This document shows positions 5,837-30,768 of a stretch of DNA of 64,000 bases, piece by piece. Location: assembly GCF_000422845.1 (NCBI RefSeq), contig NZ_AUGV01000007.1:1-64000 (forward strand), in the 5' to 3' direction. This stretch comes from Oceanobacter kriegii DSM 6294 (GTDB lineage: Bacteria > Pseudomonadota > Gammaproteobacteria > Pseudomonadales > Oceanobacteraceae). Numbering within the stretch: position 1 is the stretch's first letter; the number at the start of each line of letters is the position of its first letter. A program made the translations under genes and the position numbers. The notes beneath the pieces were generated by a model. That model saw only the letters and a list, made by a program, of their open reading frames with translations. It was not told the origin of the DNA and made no database searches.

Positions 5837-6223
5837 TTATCCCTGGCTACGCGTCAGGACATTCGCAAGGGCGATGCCGAGGCCAGTAGCCGCAAAACAC
5901 CCAGCCACACTGGCGAGCACGTAAGAGCCGAGCGCCATCCAGCGCTCTTGCTGCATCAGTGCAACACTTTCCAGTGAGAAGGTGGAAAAGGTAGTGAATG
6001 CGCCCAGGAATCCAACCATGGCCAGCTGTTTGTAGTGCTCGCTGCCCCACTGCTGTTGAACCAGAATCACATAGGCAATACCAATCACGAAGGAGCCTAT
6101 CAGGTTCACCCCCAGCGTGCCATAAGGGAACGCTTGTCCCATGGCTTTGAACAATGAACTTGCGGTCAGATAACGAGCGACAGCGCCCAGTGCGCCACCA
6201 AGTGCAATCCATAACAACGCCAC
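5837..6223 (-). CDS. crcB: Fluoride efflux channel CrcB/Fluc
   Basis: 128 aa with four membrane segments. Family motifs: GGALGAVARY, PYGTLGVNLIGSFVIG (the Asn is a pore residue) and GFLGAFTTFSTFSLE with the Phe-box/TFST motif. The dual-topology dimer exports fluoride. The start is GTG at 6223, with AAGGAG 8 bp upstream. It follows rarA by 3 bp, so it is co-transcribed. The single gene fits the homodimer form. No fluoride riboswitch is visible upstream, as expected inside an operon. Confidence 0.94.
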   Translation of the reverse strand: MALLWIALGGALGAVARYLTASSLFKAMGQAFPYGTLGVNLIGSFVIGIAYVILVQQQWGSEHYKQLAMVGFLGAFTTFSTFSLESVALMQQERWMALGSYVLASVAGCFAATGLGIALANVLTRSQG

Positions 6224-6226
6224 GGG

Positions 6227-7597
6227 TTAGTCTCCTTCGTGATAGTCGGGTGTGTGGGGGGAGCCAGAAGGCCCGGAAGGATACCGCTGCTGCGGGGAGT
6301 TGCGGTTCATTTGCTGTAAATGGTCCAGTTTGCGGCCGATTTTTTCTTCCAGACCGCGATCCGATGGGTAATACAGTTGCAGGTCTTTCAGCTCTGGCGG
6401 GAAGTAGTTTTCGCCCGCCGCAAAGGCGCCGGGTTCGTCATGGGCATAACGGTACTCTTCGCCATAGCCGAGCTGGCTCATCAACTTGGTGGGCGCATTA
6501 CGTAAATGCAGCGGTACCTCATAGCTGGGCTGGGACGCTACCAGCTGACGCGCTTGTTTGTAGGCGGCGTATACCTTGTTGCTCTTCGGGGCAGAGGCGA
6601 TGTACGCCACAGCCTGGGCCAAACACAATTCGCCTTCAGGCTGTCCAAGCCGCTCGATGGCATCCCAGGCAGCCATACAGAGTGGCAGCGCACGCGGGTC
6701 GGCATTGCCAACGTCTTCACTGGCCATGGCAATGATACGGCGGGCGATGTAAAGCGGATCACAGCCGCCATCGATCATGCGTGCCAGCCAGTACAGCGCT
6801 GCGTCCGGGGATGAACCTCGTACCGATTTGTGCAGTGCTGAAATCTGGTCATAAAACGCCTCGCCGCCTTTATCAAAACGACGACTGGTGGTACCTGCCA
6901 GCTGGTTTACGTGATCGAGGCCTAGAGGTTCACCAGCGGCAAGCTGAATGGCATATTCAAACTGATTGAGTGCCCGGCGAGCGTCGCCGTCGGCCATCAT
7001 GGCAATTCGCTCTAACGCCTCCGGGCTTGAAGGATTGACCAGATCACCGTCGGCTATCAGGCGTTGCTCGGCCCGCTGCAGCACCTGCTGCAAGTCGGCA
7101 TCGGCCAGACTTTTAAGAACGTATACCCGGGCGCGGGACAACAAGGCATTGTTGAGTTCGAAGGACGGATTCTCTGTGGTTGCACCAATGAATATCACGG
7201 TGCCATCTTCGACGTGTGGCAGGAAGGCGTCTTGCTGGGTTTTGTTGAAACGGTGCACTTCGTCGATAAACAGCACCGTCTTCTTGCCAGTGGCGCGATA
7301 CTGCCGGGCCTGATCGACCGCCTCGCGAATATCCTTGATACCCGCCATGACGGCGCTGAGGGTAACAAACCGGGCATCGACATAGCTGGCAATCAACTTC
7401 GACAGAGTGGTTTTACCAACCCCCGGCGGCCCCCAGAAAATTAACGAATGCAACTGCCCCGCTTCGAGCGATTTACGCAGCGGCGTGCCTTCACCAACCA
7501 CGTGCTGCTGGCCGATGTATTCATCAAGGTTACTGGGCCGCATTCGTGATGCCAAAGGTTCATAGCCGCCAGAGGCATCGCCAAACAGATCGTTCAT
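6227..7597 (-). CDS. rarA: Replication-associated recombination protein A (RarA/MgsA)
   Basis: 456 aa AAA+ ATPase related to clamp loaders, acting at stalled forks. Visible: IGQQHVVG, Walker A GPPGVGKTT, Walker B LFIDEVHRFNKTQQDAFL, sensor 1 GATTENPSFELNNALLSR, then the helical tetramerisation region (YQQ-type KQARQLVAS..VPLHLRNAPTKLM). It lies downstream of lolA (4-bp gap) and upstream of crcB. lolA-rarA-crcB-serS is a conserved gammaproteobacterial order. Confidence 0.96.
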   Translation of the reverse strand: MNDLFGDASGGYEPLASRMRPSNLDEYIGQQHVVGEGTPLRKSLEAGQLHSLIFWGPPGVGKTTLSKLIASYVDARFVTLSAVMAGIKDIREAVDQARQYRATGKKTVLFIDEVHRFNKTQQDAFLPHVEDGTVIFIGATTENPSFELNNALLSRARVYVLKSLADADLQQVLQRAEQRLIADGDLVNPSSPEALERIAMMADGDARRALNQFEYAIQLAAGEPLGLDHVNQLAGTTSRRFDKGGEAFYDQISALHKSVRGSSPDAALYWLARMIDGGCDPLYIARRIIAMASEDVGNADPRALPLCMAAWDAIERLGQPEGELCLAQAVAYIASAPKSNKVYAAYKQARQLVASQPSYEVPLHLRNAPTKLMSQLGYGEEYRYAHDEPGAFAAGENYFPPELKDLQLYYPSDRGLEEKIGRKLDHLQQMNRNSPQQRYPSGPSGSPHTPDYHEGD

Positions 7598-24282: not shown

Positions 24283-24552
24283 AAGGGACCCTCTGGATAA
24301 CTCGGTGCCCGCTCTGGATGACAGGGCGACGCTGAATCACGAAGCTGATTTGCAGGCCTGGCGGGTCAAGTCAAAAATCAGCGACACAGAGTCAGCAATG
24401 CCCTGCCATCCCCGTAGGGCACGGCCTGCAGACCGCCAGAACGGTGTTGGCGAATTTGAAAAGGGCCAGCCATTCCGCTGCATTCGCCGCCTTGTTCTGA
24501 CAACCTGCAGGACTCGCGCAGAGCTGTGCAGAGTTATTCAGAGGGTCCTTAG
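24283..24552. mobile_element. MITE-like element with terminal inverted repeats (copy 1, ~270 bp)
   Basis: The left end AAGGGACCCTCTGGATAACT and the right end GAGTTATTCAGAGGGTCCTT are inverted repeats with few mismatches. The right end, read inward, continues CTCTGCACAGCTCTGCGC, which matches the second copy at 36981-37045 (CTCTGTACAGCGCTGCGC). No transposase frame lies inside, so it is a non-autonomous element. The end sequence and the CTAA/TTAG flank recall IS5-type elements, but that family link is inference. The right end overlaps the TAA stop of jetC. Confidence 0.7.
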
Positions 24553-27500
24553 CCAAACTCCGCCATAAAATCCAAACCAGCCTGATGGCGTATGGTTTTG
24601 CGATGGTTGGCCCATAGTTCACGAATCCGTTCCTGATTGCACTTCTGCCGATCCACCAACACCCGGGTTTGCAACTCCCCCGACGCCTGGCCTGCCAACA
24701 GCGGAATTTTGCTGAACACAAACTGATTGGAAATCATGTCCATAAACGGACCGGATTTACTGGTCGGCATAATAAACAACAACTGCAAGCCGAGGCTTTC
24801 GGTCAGGTAGTTAATCACTTCTTTGGAACGCGCTTCGTCCATTTTCGAGAAGGCTTCGTCGACCAGCACCATGCGCAGGTGAGTGTCGCCTTCGTTGAAG
24901 CGGAAGGCCGACGTGATGGCTGCTGAGCGAATGATATACGCCGGGGTTTCCAACTGACCGCCGGAACCAGTGCCATATTGGCTCAAGGCAATCGGGTCCT
25001 TGTTGGCTGGTTGCTTGTAAATCTCGTAGCTGCGGTAGTTGCGGTAGTCGGAAATACGTTCCAGCTCGCGCATGGCTTTTTGCTCATCGTCGTCCAGCAG
25101 CATGCTGATCAACTGATCTCGCACCCGCAGTGCAGCTTTGGGCAGATCCGCATCAAACAAGGTCGCGCCTTCACCGAGCGTCGGGTTTTTGATGACTTCT
25201 TCGAAGAACTGCCAGTATTCCTTGTATTCCGGCACCCACTCCCAATCGAACCAGTAGCATTCCTGATCTGCACCAAAACGATGGTGCGCCAGTTCCTTGT
25301 TGAGTTCTTCCAGTACCCGCTTGCCGTCGTTGATCGACTGGTAAATGGAATGGCAAAGGTTGGTCACAAACGCGTTGTTGAAGCTTTCACGCAGTTGCTC
25401 CAGCTGCCCCTGTTTTTCCACCAGAATGTTGTTTTTCAGACGGTTGTGAACGCGTTCGATTTCACGGTTAAGGCCGGTCAGGGATTTGAAAAAGGCCTCA
25501 TTGTGCTCGAGGCGATAATCCGGGCTGTAAACAATGGCGTCGACGGTCTGGCAGTTCTGGTTGTGCTCAGCAATGTGGCGTTCTACTTCGTAGGCGCTGC
25601 CATTCAGCTCCTGAATCAGCTGCTGTGCCTGCTTGTCGAGGGCATCGGCTGACGCTTCTGCTGCTTGCTTGTCGGCAGCCTCAAGCGTTTGTTCCAATGC
25701 GAGGTCTGGCCAGAGGCTGGCAACATGACGCAAGGATTCTTCTGCCAGATCGGCAGCGTCGGACGTCACTTCCTGACGATCGCTCAGTGCCTTGCACTTC
25801 TGCTCGCTGTCTTTCAGGCGCTGCTGCAAGCTACCCAGCAAGCCGTCGAGTTCGCGGATATGAGCGTCTTGCTCGTCGGCTTTTTGCTTCAGTAGCTCGA
25901 ATTCCTGCTCCACTCCGGAGAAATCGGCCACATCGACGCTGTCGAGGGATTTCTCGGCTTGTTGCAGGCGGTAATGGGTGTCCAGCATGGCACGGATCTG
26001 GTCTGCAAAATCGACCTGGCGCAGCAGGTTAATTGCATCCAGCAGCTGGCTGGCCTCTTTCAGACTTGCCAAAGCTTCGTTGCACTGGGCTGCCAATGTC
26101 TGGATTTCGTTTTGCTTGGCAATCAGGGCGCGTTCCCGGGCAGCGGCACCGAACACCAGATCGCTGTCATCGAGATCGCAGCGGTACATGGAATAAGCGC
26201 CCGACCCGAGTCCTTCCTTGCACACGCCCCGGCGGGTGGTTTTCAGAGTGTCGACATCCGGCACCAGCTCCACGTTGCCGTAACTGGCCTGCAAATACGC
26301 CCGAGCGGTGGCGTGTTCAAATTCCATCAGGCTAAGAATGGAGTTGCTGGATACCTTCATCCGGTCGGCATCCTGACGGGCCTTACGGCCTTGAATAACC
26401 CGCGCCCGGCTACCGCCAGACATGCCACGAACAATACGGGCTGCTTCGGCTTCGTACTCGGGTTCAACAATGATGCTGAAGCGGGCGCCGCCAATATAAC
26501 CTTCAATGGCGCTTTGCCAGGCGGTGTCGGTGACCGACACGTAATCAGCCAGCACTCGCGGCTCGGCTTGCGGGCATTCGCGCTGAATCACATCCAGTGC
26601 CTGACGAACAAAACCCGGGTAGCTCAACTGCTGGCTTTCCAGGGTGTCGACATCCGCCTGCTTCTGATTCAGACGACCACGCAGCTGCTGTAGCTTCTGA
26701 TCACGGCGATCAACAACACGGGCAAGCTGATCTCGAATGGAGCTACCGCTGCTTTCCAGTTCGCTGTCGTGGAAACGCGTGCGCCAGTTGTTCATCAGGG
26801 TTTGTTGTTCGCGGGCCTGATCCAGTTGCTGCTCCAGCGGCGACAGGTCAATCCAGTCCTTACCCAGCAGCTTGCGCAGATCGATGCTGTCCTGATCTTT
26901 CAGCGCCAGCACGTTACGGGCCTGATCAACCAATCCCTTGCTGGACAGCGACGGTACTTCCAGCGCCAGGCTGGTGCGCTGCATGCCGTTGAAAATCAGC
27001 TCGCTGGCGCGCAGCGAGGCTTGCAGCATCTGGTCTTGTTCCAGCAATGGCAACGCTTGGCGTTGCAGCTGTTGCTTAGCTTCCTCGATCGATTTTTCAG
27101 CACTGTCCTTGTTCTGCAAGGCACTGATGCCGAGGCGCTTGGCTTCCATGCCAATCAGTTGTTCGCGCAGGCTGGAGCGGCGCAATTGAGCAGCTTCGCG
27201 CTCTTGCTCGGCGTCTTTCAGTTGGCTGCGCAGACCCTGCTGGATTTCCTTGGCCTTGAGGTAGGCTTTCTGGTCTTCCAGAAAACGGCAGCGGGCGGCG
27301 GTGTAGCCCAGAATCTGATGATCCAGCCATTGGTCAATGTAACGACCGGATGCGCCTTTGGCGCGATTCAGCCGCTCGATGGTGTCTGCCAATGTGCGGG
27401 ATTCCGATTCCATCGCATGAATGGTTTTCATCAGGTCAGACACCGACCGAATGGCGTCACCAAGATCACGGGCTTCCAGAATCTCATTGGCGACAAAGCC

Positions 27501-28217
27501 GTTGATGCTTTTCACTGGCTTGTAGGCCATAAAGCGAGAGAAGGTTTTTGCGGCATTCAGCGCTTCGCGCTCACTCACGGCGTCGAAGCGTCCACGCAGT
27601 GCGCCATACAACCGACGCAGGTACTGCTTCTTGGTGTCGTACTGCTCAACGTTGAGGGTCGCGGCCGACTGGTCGCCATGACGAGATCCGAGGCGATTGT
27701 TAAGCCAGCCCTTGAGTTTGTTGAGTGGCACAACGAGACGGTTGCCTTCGACGTCATCCTGCAAAAAGTCCGACAGCGTCAGCTGTTCGCCAGCAACGAT
27801 GTAAAACTGAATGTCGTGCTGGCGGGCGACCGGCTGAGCACCGGCCTTGTCGAGGGATGCCGATACGCCAATGACGGCTGTGAATGGCTCGCCGGGTTCG
27901 TTTTGGGTCGGGTGGAATACGGCTGCCAGATAACCCACCGCGCCTTCCGGGCGAGCGTAGCTACCATCGTCACAACCCAGTACATAGCTGGCGAGGGTTC
28001 GCACGTTTTTGCCACGACCACGCTGGGTCGCTTCGTCTTGACCCGGGTTGTAGTTAAACAGCGTGTCGTGAGCGGCTGTCATGATGGTCTGAATGGCGTC
28101 GGCCGCGGTGGTTTTGCCGGAACCGTTGCCACCAGACAGCAGATTGATTGGGCCAAATTCAAATTCAGTGGCTGGGATGTTGCCCCAGTTCACGTAAACA
28201 AATTTCTTCAGGAACAT
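24549..28217 (-). CDS. jetC: SMC-like ATPase JetC/MksB (Wadjet-type condensin)
   Basis: 1222 aa. Walker A is near residue 30 (LLSGGNGSGKTTAADAIQTI). Long coiled-coil arms flank a central hinge-like region (about 560-640, EGYIGGARFSIIVEPEYEAE). At the C-terminus are an ABC signature-like SQYGTGSGGQLETPAYIIR and Walker B RMVLVDEAFSKMDEARSKE. This is the JetC/MksB architecture of SMC motors that extrude DNA loops. It is the third gene of jetA-jetB-jetC (3-bp gap after jetB). No jetD/mksG nuclease gene follows; the next DNA is a MITE-like repeat that touches the TAA. Without JetD it may act in chromosome organisation rather than plasmid cleavage. Confidence 0.88.
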   Translation of the reverse strand: MFLKKFVYVNWGNIPATEFEFGPINLLSGGNGSGKTTAADAIQTIMTAAHDTLFNYNPGQDEATQRGRGKNVRTLASYVLGCDDGSYARPEGAVGYLAAVFHPTQNEPGEPFTAVIGVSASLDKAGAQPVARQHDIQFYIVAGEQLTLSDFLQDDVEGNRLVVPLNKLKGWLNNRLGSRHGDQSAATLNVEQYDTKKQYLRRLYGALRGRFDAVSEREALNAAKTFSRFMAYKPVKSINGFVANEILEARDLGDAIRSVSDLMKTIHAMESESRTLADTIERLNRAKGASGRYIDQWLDHQILGYTAARCRFLEDQKAYLKAKEIQQGLRSQLKDAEQEREAAQLRRSSLREQLIGMEAKRLGISALQNKDSAEKSIEEAKQQLQRQALPLLEQDQMLQASLRASELIFNGMQRTSLALEVPSLSSKGLVDQARNVLALKDQDSIDLRKLLGKDWIDLSPLEQQLDQAREQQTLMNNWRTRFHDSELESSGSSIRDQLARVVDRRDQKLQQLRGRLNQKQADVDTLESQQLSYPGFVRQALDVIQRECPQAEPRVLADYVSVTDTAWQSAIEGYIGGARFSIIVEPEYEAEAARIVRGMSGGSRARVIQGRKARQDADRMKVSSNSILSLMEFEHATARAYLQASYGNVELVPDVDTLKTTRRGVCKEGLGSGAYSMYRCDLDDSDLVFGAAARERALIAKQNEIQTLAAQCNEALASLKEASQLLDAINLLRQVDFADQIRAMLDTHYRLQQAEKSLDSVDVADFSGVEQEFELLKQKADEQDAHIRELDGLLGSLQQRLKDSEQKCKALSDRQEVTSDAADLAEESLRHVASLWPDLALEQTLEAADKQAAEASADALDKQAQQLIQELNGSAYEVERHIAEHNQNCQTVDAIVYSPDYRLEHNEAFFKSLTGLNREIERVHNRLKNNILVEKQGQLEQLRESFNNAFVTNLCHSIYQSINDGKRVLEELNKELAHHRFGADQECYWFDWEWVPEYKEYWQFFEEVIKNPTLGEGATLFDADLPKAALRVRDQLISMLLDDDEQKAMRELERISDYRNYRSYEIYKQPANKDPIALSQYGTGSGGQLETPAYIIRSAAITSAFRFNEGDTHLRMVLVDEAFSKMDEARSKEVINYLTESLGLQLLFIMPTSKSGPFMDMISNQFVFSKIPLLAGQASGELQTRVLVDRQKCNQERIRELWANHRKTIRHQAGLDFMAEFG

Positions 28218-28220
28218 GGT

Positions 28221-29099
28221 TTACTTGCCTTCTTCCGTGACGCTGTTGCTGGCTTCTGATTCTGTGTCGGTTGCAGTCAAATCATCCAGATCGCCAAACA
28301 GGGACGGCCCTGCGGTCGCTTGTGTCGGTGCCTGATCTGTTTCGTCGGGCTCTTGCTCTGGTTCCGGCTGTACTGAATCCTGCTGTACGGCTTGCTGTTG
28401 GTCGGACTCAGTGTCTGTAGATTCAGAGCCAGTAGATTCAACGTCATCAGATTCAGAACCGCCGACAGCCGGACTGTCATCGCCCAGCAGAGTCGACAAC
28501 ACGTCGTCTGAGACATAGCTCATAATCATGGGGCGAACACGCAGCCAGGTGTCGCCATCGCCAAGCTGGTCGTCGCTGCTGAGATGGATCAAACGCAGCT
28601 GACGCAAACGTCGGAACAGGGTTTTGCGCTCGGTCAGCTGGTCTGGTAGCTGACGCTTGAGCAGGTTTTGCATGGCAATGCCGAGGGTTTCAAGCGACAC
28701 CATGACGCAGCCATGCTCATCCACCGCGCCTTCACGCAGGGCTTTGTCGTATTGGGCGCGCAGCACCAGAGTCAGCGCCACTTCGTTCTGATTCAGGCGC
28801 AGGCGGAAGGCCTGGCTTTGTTCAAAGCCAGCCTCTTCTTCCATACCCGGCACCACGGCGCCGGGCGGCACGACGCGTAAAAACTGGAAGCGGCGATCGT
28901 GCAGTACTCGTAAGCCGATCAATTGAAGGTAGTCGTGTACCAGGTCCTCAAGGCGCAGGTAGCGGTCGTACAGCTGTTGCTCAATCTGGCTTTCGTCACG
29001 GCAAATCACGCCGTAATCCAGCAAGCGCATCAGCAGCTCAGAGAATTCCCGCAGGCTCAAGCCGGCCTGTTCCAATTGTTTTTCAATCAGTGAAAGCAT
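28221..29099 (-). CDS. jetB: JetB/MksE-like condensin subunit (DUF4194 type)
   Basis: 292 aa. The N-terminal ~200 residues are winged-helix-like: [90 protein letters not shown]. This matches the MksE/JetB KITE-type subunit that bridges JetA and the JetC heads. Residues from about 207 to the end form a striking acidic, Ser/Thr/Gln/Glu-rich disordered tail. It is 2 bp downstream of jetA and 3 bp upstream of jetC. Confidence 0.82.
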
Positions 29100-29101
29100 A
29101 T

Positions 29102-30673
29102 TCAGTCCGTGTCTTCAGTCGCCGGAGCGGCTGCATCAGCCGATTCTGTGTTGGAGTGTTTGGCAACCAGCTCGAAGGTGAAGTGGTCTTTGTGTTCAAA
29201 ATAGCGGCTGGCGGTGTGTTCGCTGTCGTTCGAAGGTGCTGCGGTCTGGTCATCCGGCTGCACGACAAAACGAAAGTCTGAGCTGGTGTTGGCCACCGAA
29301 CTGTCCGCTGCCCCCAAACCAATGGCGTGGGCTACCGCCAGCAAGTCGCTGGCCGACTCAATGTGCAGTTCGCGGGTGGATATTTTTTTGCCCGCACTGA
29401 GTTGCTTGCCTATGTACCCACGCAGCGCCTGCTGATTTACAAGGAATGCCTGATCCAGCACTTGCTGGATGTAGGTGTTCTTGCGAGCGCCCAGGTCAAC
29501 CTCGCCTTTCTCGCCCGGCAGTGCGGTTGCGACGTTCTGGCGCGCTCTTGGGGCAGCCATGCGCACGTGTGACGGGTCAACATAGCCAAACTCAGGCACA
29601 GCCATCAGTTCGCCGGCTTTACTCAGCAATGCGTCCTGGCGTTCGGCCGGTGCTTCTGCCAGTTTCTTGCACACCGATAACACGTTGTTGTGCCGTTGGG
29701 ACGCAAGATAGCTCATTTGACGAATGATGATGTCCGCCCGCTTGGTGAAGCTTTGCAGCGACTTTCTAAGCGCCGGCAGCATGATTTCTGCGGCATTGCG
29801 CATGCGCTGTTCAATGCCGTCCAGCAACCACCAGAGTAACGACTGCCCTGCCACGGCCTGTTCTGGCATCAGCTCACGCAGGCGTTTCTCGGTTGCGGCC
29901 TTGAATGCCGTGTCCTTGCGACGAATATCACGAATCAGGGCTTCAATGCGGTCGCGGTGGCGCTCTACGTTATCGGCAGATAAACGCACCGACAGGTCAG
30001 GCTGGAAGCGGTTTTCCATAAAATCGAAAAAGGCTTCACTGGCATGCTGAACCAGCAGCTGGTCTTCCATTTCGCGCACCAGATCGCGCTTGCGCTCATC
30101 CAGTTCAGCAATGACATCGGTAAAGTCGCTGATAATGCGCTCAGAGTATTCGAATGCATCCAGCAGATCGTACACATCGCCGCGCTCGCAGAAGCTTTCC
30201 AGCGCATTGCGGGTATTACGGGTGTTGCGATGACGGGTGCGCGCAGTAATACGGTGGTCGCTCACGAATGGCTCGGTGAATTCACGGCCAAAGCGCGTAA
30301 AAGAAAAGGTGCTGTGCAGCGTTGCCTGGTCGACCTGCTTTTCCAGCCAGCCGTGTTCCAGTAGCTGGTTGAGAATCCAGACCGCCTGATCGCGACTGGT
30401 GCGGAATCGCAGCGGTGCATCGTCTTCGGCAGTGGCGCTGGATGTGCCAGAAGTCTCGGCAGCGCCTTCGTTTTCTGTGGCCACTTGAGGCCCACGCACC
30501 AGGGCTTCCTGAAAGATTTCGATCAATTGGTCGCGCACCAGCGCATGGCCATAATCTGCATTGGCCGAGCTGTACAGCCGTTGATACAGCTCTTTCAGAC
30601 ACTCAACAATGTGCTCGCGGTACTTGCCAGTGAGCGGCCTAAAGAAGTGTTCACGTTCCTGCTGAAAAAACAT
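29102..30673 (-). CDS. jetA: JetA/MksF-like kleisin subunit
   Basis: 523 aa. The N-terminus [20 protein letters not shown] resembles the Wadjet JetA family (ENFF.PL..K..E...CL..LY). A mostly helical protein follows: a winged-helix-like segment ([20 protein letters not shown]), a long helical middle and a Ser/Asp/Glu-rich C-terminus. JetA/MksF is the kleisin that closes the SMC ring. It is the first gene of the operon. The type I, II or III assignment cannot be settled by eye; the JetA N-terminus suggests the JetA (DUF5716-like) group rather than DUF3375. Confidence 0.8.
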
Positions 30674-30704: not shown

Positions 30705-30728
30705 AAAAAGCCGAGTATAACTCGGCTT
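30705..30728 (-). terminator. Terminator of the MetF-like gene
   Basis: Minus strand AAGCCGAGTTATACTCGGCTTTTTG with further T-rich sequence. It separates the MetF-like gene from jetA, so jetABC is an independent transcription unit. Confidence 0.88.
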
Positions 30729-30768
30729 CGTTGCTGGCGCGTATCTGACTTCAAGACTTGTGATCTTG

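Follow-up and report, generated by a model that had tools for sequence, protein, structure and literature searches.

The window analyzed here, a stretch of 64,000 nucleotides from Oceanobacter kriegii DSM 6294 (contig NZ_AUGV01000007.1, positions 1 to 64,000), contains three intact open reading frames on the minus strand, jetA, jetB and jetC in that order, with spacers of 2 and 3 bp. jetA (29102–30673) encodes a kleisin subunit of 523 amino acids, jetB (28221–29099) a KITE subunit of 292 amino acids, and jetC (24549–28217) an SMC-type ATPase of 1,222 amino acids; together they would form an SMC complex of the Wadjet type I kind, without the nuclease JetD. JetA matched the Pfam family JetA (PF18982; E = 7.8e-25, 87.7 bits against a cut-off of 26.2), JetC matched SbcC_Walker_B (E = 8.1e-19) and also AAA_29, and JetB matched DUF4194 (PF13835; E = 1.5e-32, 113 bits) and no other Pfam family at E values up to 1, MksE (PF21980) included. 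PADLOC assigned the proteins to JetA1 (724 bits), JetB1 (373 bits) and JetC1 (1,955 bits), with most of each profile covered. Hence the initial annotation was right to see tightly linked kleisin, KITE and SMC genes, but it extended the operon over 24283–30673, and its last 266 bp (24283–24548), beyond the jetC stop at 24549, are a repeat element.

The ATPase motifs of JetC are intact. GGNGSGKTT at residues 29–37 (28107–28133, minus strand), which we take to be the Walker A motif, and GTGSGGQLE at residues 1082–1090 (24948–24974, minus strand), presumably the ABC signature, were read directly from the sequence; Walker B, LRMVLVDEAFSKMD, at residues 1114–1127 (24837–24878, minus strand), was located by Pfam SbcC_Walker_B. 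The window thus has the JetA kleisin, the JetB KITE subunit and the SMC ATPase of a Wadjet type I system. A structural model of JetB (mean predicted local distance difference test score, pLDDT, 72.7) was compared with PDB structures by Foldseek; JetABC structures of P. aeruginosa PA14 and the E. coli Wadjet came out on top (8dk1 and 8as8; E about 1e-6 for the first match, TM-scores 0.33–0.53), followed by MukBEF/MukE entries. The C-terminal tail of JetB (window positions 28221–28490) is long and acidic, with pLDDT mostly below 50. The JetA model (mean pLDDT 64.4; best PDB match a Wadjet-II JetABC chain, E = 2.9e-3) was dropped as evidence, and phmmer searches of PDB sequences with JetC and JetA returned nothing at E values of 0.001 and 0.01.

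Nuclease and condensin genes in the O. kriegii genome

A further feature of Wadjet type I, a JetD TOPRIM nuclease in the operon or elsewhere in the genome, was not found. As the initial annotation had stated, there is no jetD beside jetABC; by Pfam, the upstream gene is MTHFR-like and the downstream gene rhodanese-like. Its further suggestion, that a nuclease could be encoded elsewhere, gained no support: when the whole O. kriegii genome (4.5 Mb in 36 contigs, 99.8% complete) was searched, neither Pfam JetD_C (PF09983) nor a profile of cognate JetDs, A1, gave a match. Profile A1 was built because cognate JetDs match JetD_C only partly (about 22–49 bits where found) and the intact JetD of one genome (G289) is missed altogether. 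It is an alignment of 18 cognate JetDs, in which E223, D289 and D291 (first-row numbering) are invariant, and it was used to score all candidates in the window's family (44 genomes of eight genera, which group with Oceanobacter, Thalassolituus, Oleispira, Bermanella and Bacterioplanes); for an order-level sample of 390 genomes, scoring was confined to the top four candidates of each genome. Since the nuclease was not found, we class the window's operon apart from Wadjet systems. The finding that the initial annotation had named as speaking against itself, a second, complete jetABCD set with the window copy in decay, was not made in this genome.

The search for other condensins covered ScpA, rather than Smc or ScpB, and showed it to be encoded in the O. 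kriegii genome and in 43 of the 44 family genomes. MukB had no match anywhere in the O. kriegii genome; jetC itself scored 17.6 bits against the Pfam MukB N-terminal domain, below the cut-off of 23. Weak MukB matches occurred in 20 of the 44 family genomes, and 14 of 44 passed the cut-off when neighboring stretches were included; among the matches listed in relatives, 19 of 22 places were the N terminus of jetC. Against SMC_prok_B, jetC scored 37.1 bits, with a curated cut-off of 567.35.

At the flanks of the operon, the upstream terminator and the downstream repeat element of the initial annotation were both recovered. The terminator-like hairpin (30707–30729, minus strand) separates jetA from the MTHFR-like gene; it has 10 pairs and is a consensus match only, one of 20 such sites in the region, compared with a mean of 7.9 in shuffled sequence. 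The repeat element of about 266 bp follows the jetC stop directly (24283–24548, minus strand) and is bounded by 18-nt inverted repeats at 24286–24303 and 24531–24548; we take it to resemble a miniature inverted-repeat transposable element (MITE). A relative of it, 73% identical, sits at the jetD 3' end in a separate Wadjet locus of another family genome (G017; positions 6162–6441 of locus L115).

Distribution of jetABC and jetD among relatives

Conservation in relatives, a point raised in the initial annotation, was borne out: jetC was matched in 43 of the 44 family genomes and in all eight genera, and cognate jetD, by profile A1, in 2 of 44. Full-length single frames accounted for 39 of the 43 jetC matches; three others (G005, G023 and G033) are truncated by the ends of their contigs, and in G042 the match is spread over two overlapping frames. 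In two Bermanella-like genomes, jetD is convergent to jetC. Six family genomes hold, in addition, a separate Wadjet locus with jetD (L166, with a JetA of the DUF3375 kind; L167; L169; L115; L168, cut by a contig end; and L114), and in these the core jetC is also full-length. A similar picture was obtained in a second family (that of G090), where jetC was matched in 20 of 22 genomes. Its 16 jetC genomes from the order-level sample include one with an adjacent jetD and one with a broken copy elsewhere, and three further genomes have no jetD behind jetC.

JetC relatives were found in 18 of 72,556 plasmid records, all below 60% identity and the best at about 31–33%. When JetC and rpoB trees were compared for 23 family genomes, 10 of 20 splits were common to both; in 200 label shuffles, the mean was 0.2 and the maximum 2, which indicates inheritance that is largely, though not wholly, vertical. 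Within the window's lineage, jetABC is a chromosomal gene set retained mostly by vertical descent.

The ratio of nonsynonymous to synonymous substitution rates (dN/dS) was 0.011–0.150 for JetC in 10 JetD-less pairs and 0.029–0.051 in three JetD-bearing pairs; for JetB it was 0.043–0.309 in the 10 JetD-less pairs. Many of the dS values are above 1 and rough, and for JetA two ratios are undefined and three come from partial comparisons. The 10 JetD-less pairs show purifying selection. All 71 rows without adjacent JetD retain Walker A, signature and Walker B, with small variants (Walker A GASGSGKTT in two rows, a signature ending in QSE in seven).

In the order-level sample, JetC was matched in 125 genomes, and the long form, at least 47% identical, was present in 86. 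Among these 86, jetD lay behind jetC in 19 and was not found in 64; of the other three, G227 keeps an adjacent remnant, G099 an intact copy at another place and G401 a broken one, also at another place. Four genomes (G109, G148, G181 and G343) were judged by whole-genome search alone. Presence and absence occur even at one syntenic locus with common flanks in Microbulbifer, where three species carry jetD (L057, L066 and L071) and three do not (L056, L060 and L061). The remnant in G227 (L135) consists of 132 amino acids, 89% identical over 131 amino acids to the JetD of L099; this jetD appears to be decaying, and jetABC at the locus is still open. In G099 (L171), about 0.5 Mb separates jetC from the gene of a cognate-type JetD, which has no jetC beside it.

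A class-level sample of 369 genomes added 10 with full-length jetC at 50% identity or more. Nine loci had enough downstream sequence to be judged, and jetD was present in seven and not found in two; the contig of G519 stops 578 bp behind jetC, and G473 was left out at locus level. In these samples, sporadic jetABC is mostly JetD-bearing and near-universal jetABC, in two families, is mostly JetD-less. Beside a 33%-identical jetC in G687 (L233), an upstream frame on the opposite strand scored 118 bits against the JetD profile. Two candidate signals were rejected. A weak tblastn JetD match downstream of the first jetC frame in L068 was taken as an out-of-frame jetC match, because the frame used as query (L110) itself reaches into jetC. 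According to the available part of PMC10586767, JetB contacts JetD through an IFDR motif at its N terminus, and this motif was tried as a marker of JetD partnership. It does not separate loci with and without jetD because it occurs in 0 of 147 JetB frames (114 distinct, some loci repeating a genome) and the N termini look alike.

A more distant JetC, of about 1,130–1,160 amino acids and 22–27% identity in the main piece, was found in families f27 (17 genomes) and f38 (16 genomes). JetD_C had no match in any of these 33 genomes; one of them, G395, has a second, 32%-identical jetC plus a JetD-like frame with one internal stop. In all seven loci examined, jetA, jetB and jetC are followed by a BolA gene (identified by Pfam in three tested loci), directly after jetC in f27 (L178–L180) and about 2–2.5 kb further on in f38 (L181–L183 and L185), and no JetD was found in the seven loci. 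By PADLOC, the three proteins of L182 are JetA1, JetB1 and JetC1, and A and C of L179 are JetA1 and JetC1. The relatives L114, L170, L173, L184 and L186 do have jetD behind jetC; L187 does not, and JetD_C is matched on another contig of the same genome. The bolA-linked jetABC is a second, apparently core lineage lacking JetD.

Gain and loss of jetD

To place the presence of jetD on the phylogeny, we used quick JetC trees (LG+G4), which carry warnings about long branches (L188, L189, L163, L156 and others) and long-branch joins, and from which near-identical rows (L097, L107, L108, L165 and L058) were left out. On the 94-row tree, the label "jetD adjacent" required 15 changes, at least 13 of them forced by well-supported branches (shuffled mean 20.7); with nine rows added, 17 changes were required. 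A two-way model with gain and loss fitted best (log likelihood −55.2, compared with −67.7 for loss only and −68.4 for gain only). The window sits in a clade without adjacent jetD that comprises 13 sampled rows from seven genera.

These data bear on whether JetABC was ancestrally a nuclease-free condensin to which jetD was added repeatedly for plasmid defense. This account of its origin, which leaves its present function aside, we consider rather doubtful, though it has points in its favor: adjacent jetD is missing from the first two branches of the ingroup, and the probability of jetD at the ingroup root, computed on the ingroup subtree alone, was 0.44 under the two-rate model and 0.14 under equal rates. 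However, both rooting outgroups have jetD behind jetC (with one internal stop in that of G395). Moreover, a same-strand jetD occupies the same slot in L071/L102, L098, L100, L103 and L132, with a 4-bp overlap between jetD and the stop of jetC, and a shared slot is not what repeated independent gains would lead one to expect. When 25 JetD–JetC pairs were compared (L082, L102, L107 and L108 left out), the two trees also agreed on 10 of 22 splits; 300 shuffles gave 0.34 on average and never more than 3. On our best reading, jetABC is a condensin with a detachable nuclease. A broader proposal is that, in marine Gammaproteobacteria, type I JetABC serves above all as a chromosomal condensin, and that many gains and losses of jetD behind one and the same operon, itself inherited mostly vertically, switch the motor between housekeeping and plasmid destruction. 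It may be correct, but we hold it tentatively, at somewhat less than even odds.

Function of JetABC and its relation to known systems

We read the window's operon as encoding a chromosomal JetABC condensin, accessory to SMC-ScpAB and without a nuclease, that probably serves chromosome folding or segregation rather than plasmid destruction; we put the probability of this reading at roughly two in three. An intact gene set that is near-universal in its family points to a probable role on the chromosome, and near-universal occurrence without cognate jetD, together with purifying selection, favors a nuclease-free housekeeping complex over a dying defense system. The initial annotation had offered a choice between a condensin in a genome without mukBEF and a defense system without its nuclease. 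The lack of a MukB match stands and the condensin is favored, but as a second condensin, since ScpA is present; decay after loss of the nuclease is disfavored. By analogy with published work on Wadjet and MukBEF, JetABC would load on DNA and use ATP hydrolysis to extrude loops; P. aeruginosa MksBEF is the model for the further suggestion that it would help to compact or segregate the chromosome with no cutting.

Several observations weigh against this reading. With SMC-ScpAB apparently in place, the cell does not need a second condensin. In the family, jetC goes unmatched in a single genome (G019, 93% complete), and the split jetC of G042 and a jetB in two pieces in G018 reflect either errors or decay. 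The 10 splits not shared by the JetC and rpoB trees are in conflict, JetB is less constrained (the dN/dS of 0.309 comes from one JetD-less pair), and many of the dS values are rough as stated above. The rooted models do not separate loss of jetD from gain. Finally, the JetDs of the extra Wadjets in six family genomes might act in trans, the O. kriegii genome being excepted.

This last point touches on an alternative in which JetD-less JetABC remains directed at plasmids or other mobile DNA: it would trap or silence circular DNA, or work with a different nuclease encoded at an unlinked site. Wadjet subunits are indeed the models that score best in PADLOC, further JetD-bearing Wadjets coexist with the core locus in those six genomes, and G099 shows a cognate JetD far from its jetC. 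Yet neither JetD profile was matched in the O. kriegii genome, the JetD of G099 clusters with those of L096/L097, which the JetC of that genome does not, and near-universality in two families is unusual for a defense system. The window's neighbor genes, moreover, recur on one or both sides of jetABC in only some named relatives (other partners were not systematically searched). We regard an anti-plasmid role as unlikely. Much less probable still is that the operon is a Wadjet in decay after a recent loss of jetD, as might be suspected from the jetD remnant in G227, the MITE-like element directly after the window's jetC and the broken genes of G042 and G018. Against it stand the full-length frames of most family jetC genes, three of the four remaining ones being cut by contig ends, as well as purifying selection, the retention of all ATPase motifs, and the breadth of the window's clade without adjacent jetD.

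The idea that JetD can be lost is already in print (PMC10586767, as far as its available part goes); what is new here is the family-wide core status of jetABC and the repeated presence and absence of jetD at one locus. In the accessible portions of open-licence PMC papers, including PMC10586767, PMC10123090, PMC7485682 and PMC10512200, we found no report that type I jetABC is core and JetD-less in these bacteria. The loci form a natural test series, in which intact jetABC is accompanied by jetD, by a jetD remnant, by a jetD elsewhere in the genome or by none; the series takes in Microbulbifer, whose species share a syntenic locus but not always the jetD in it. It also carries a warning: a jetABC match in a defense-system scan need not mean a defense system.

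Compared with known systems, the window's operon resembles Wadjet type I (JetABCD) in all three SMC subunits, in the order A-B-C, in its PADLOC type I models and in the JetB fold; unlike it, no JetD was found, and the operon is near-universal and largely vertical in its family. With SMC-ScpAB it shares the SMC ATPase architecture, but jetC falls far under the SMC_prok_B cut-off and ScpA is encoded separately in the O. kriegii genome. With MukBEF it likewise shares the architecture, and the modeled JetB resembles MukE, whereas jetC scores below the MukB cut-off. The MksBEFG of C. glutamicum, described in the available part of PMC10123090, is a related SMC complex for plasmid defense and contains the MksG nuclease, for which no counterpart was found in the window's operon. 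Also comparable, going by the accessible published description, is P. aeruginosa MksBEF, a kleisin-KITE-SMC complex that works beside SMC and, like the set found in the O. kriegii genome, has no nuclease subunit; the window's JetB differs in matching DUF4194 and not Pfam MksE, a distinction made on profile matches. MksBEF of P. aeruginosa likely lost JetD (PMC10586767, available part), and inactivation of SMC, MksB and ParB together is lethal in that species (PMC7485682, available part). If the broader proposal above is true, the separate JetD-less core lineages, the window's and the bolA-linked one of f27 and f38, would parallel MksBEF and MukBEF independently.

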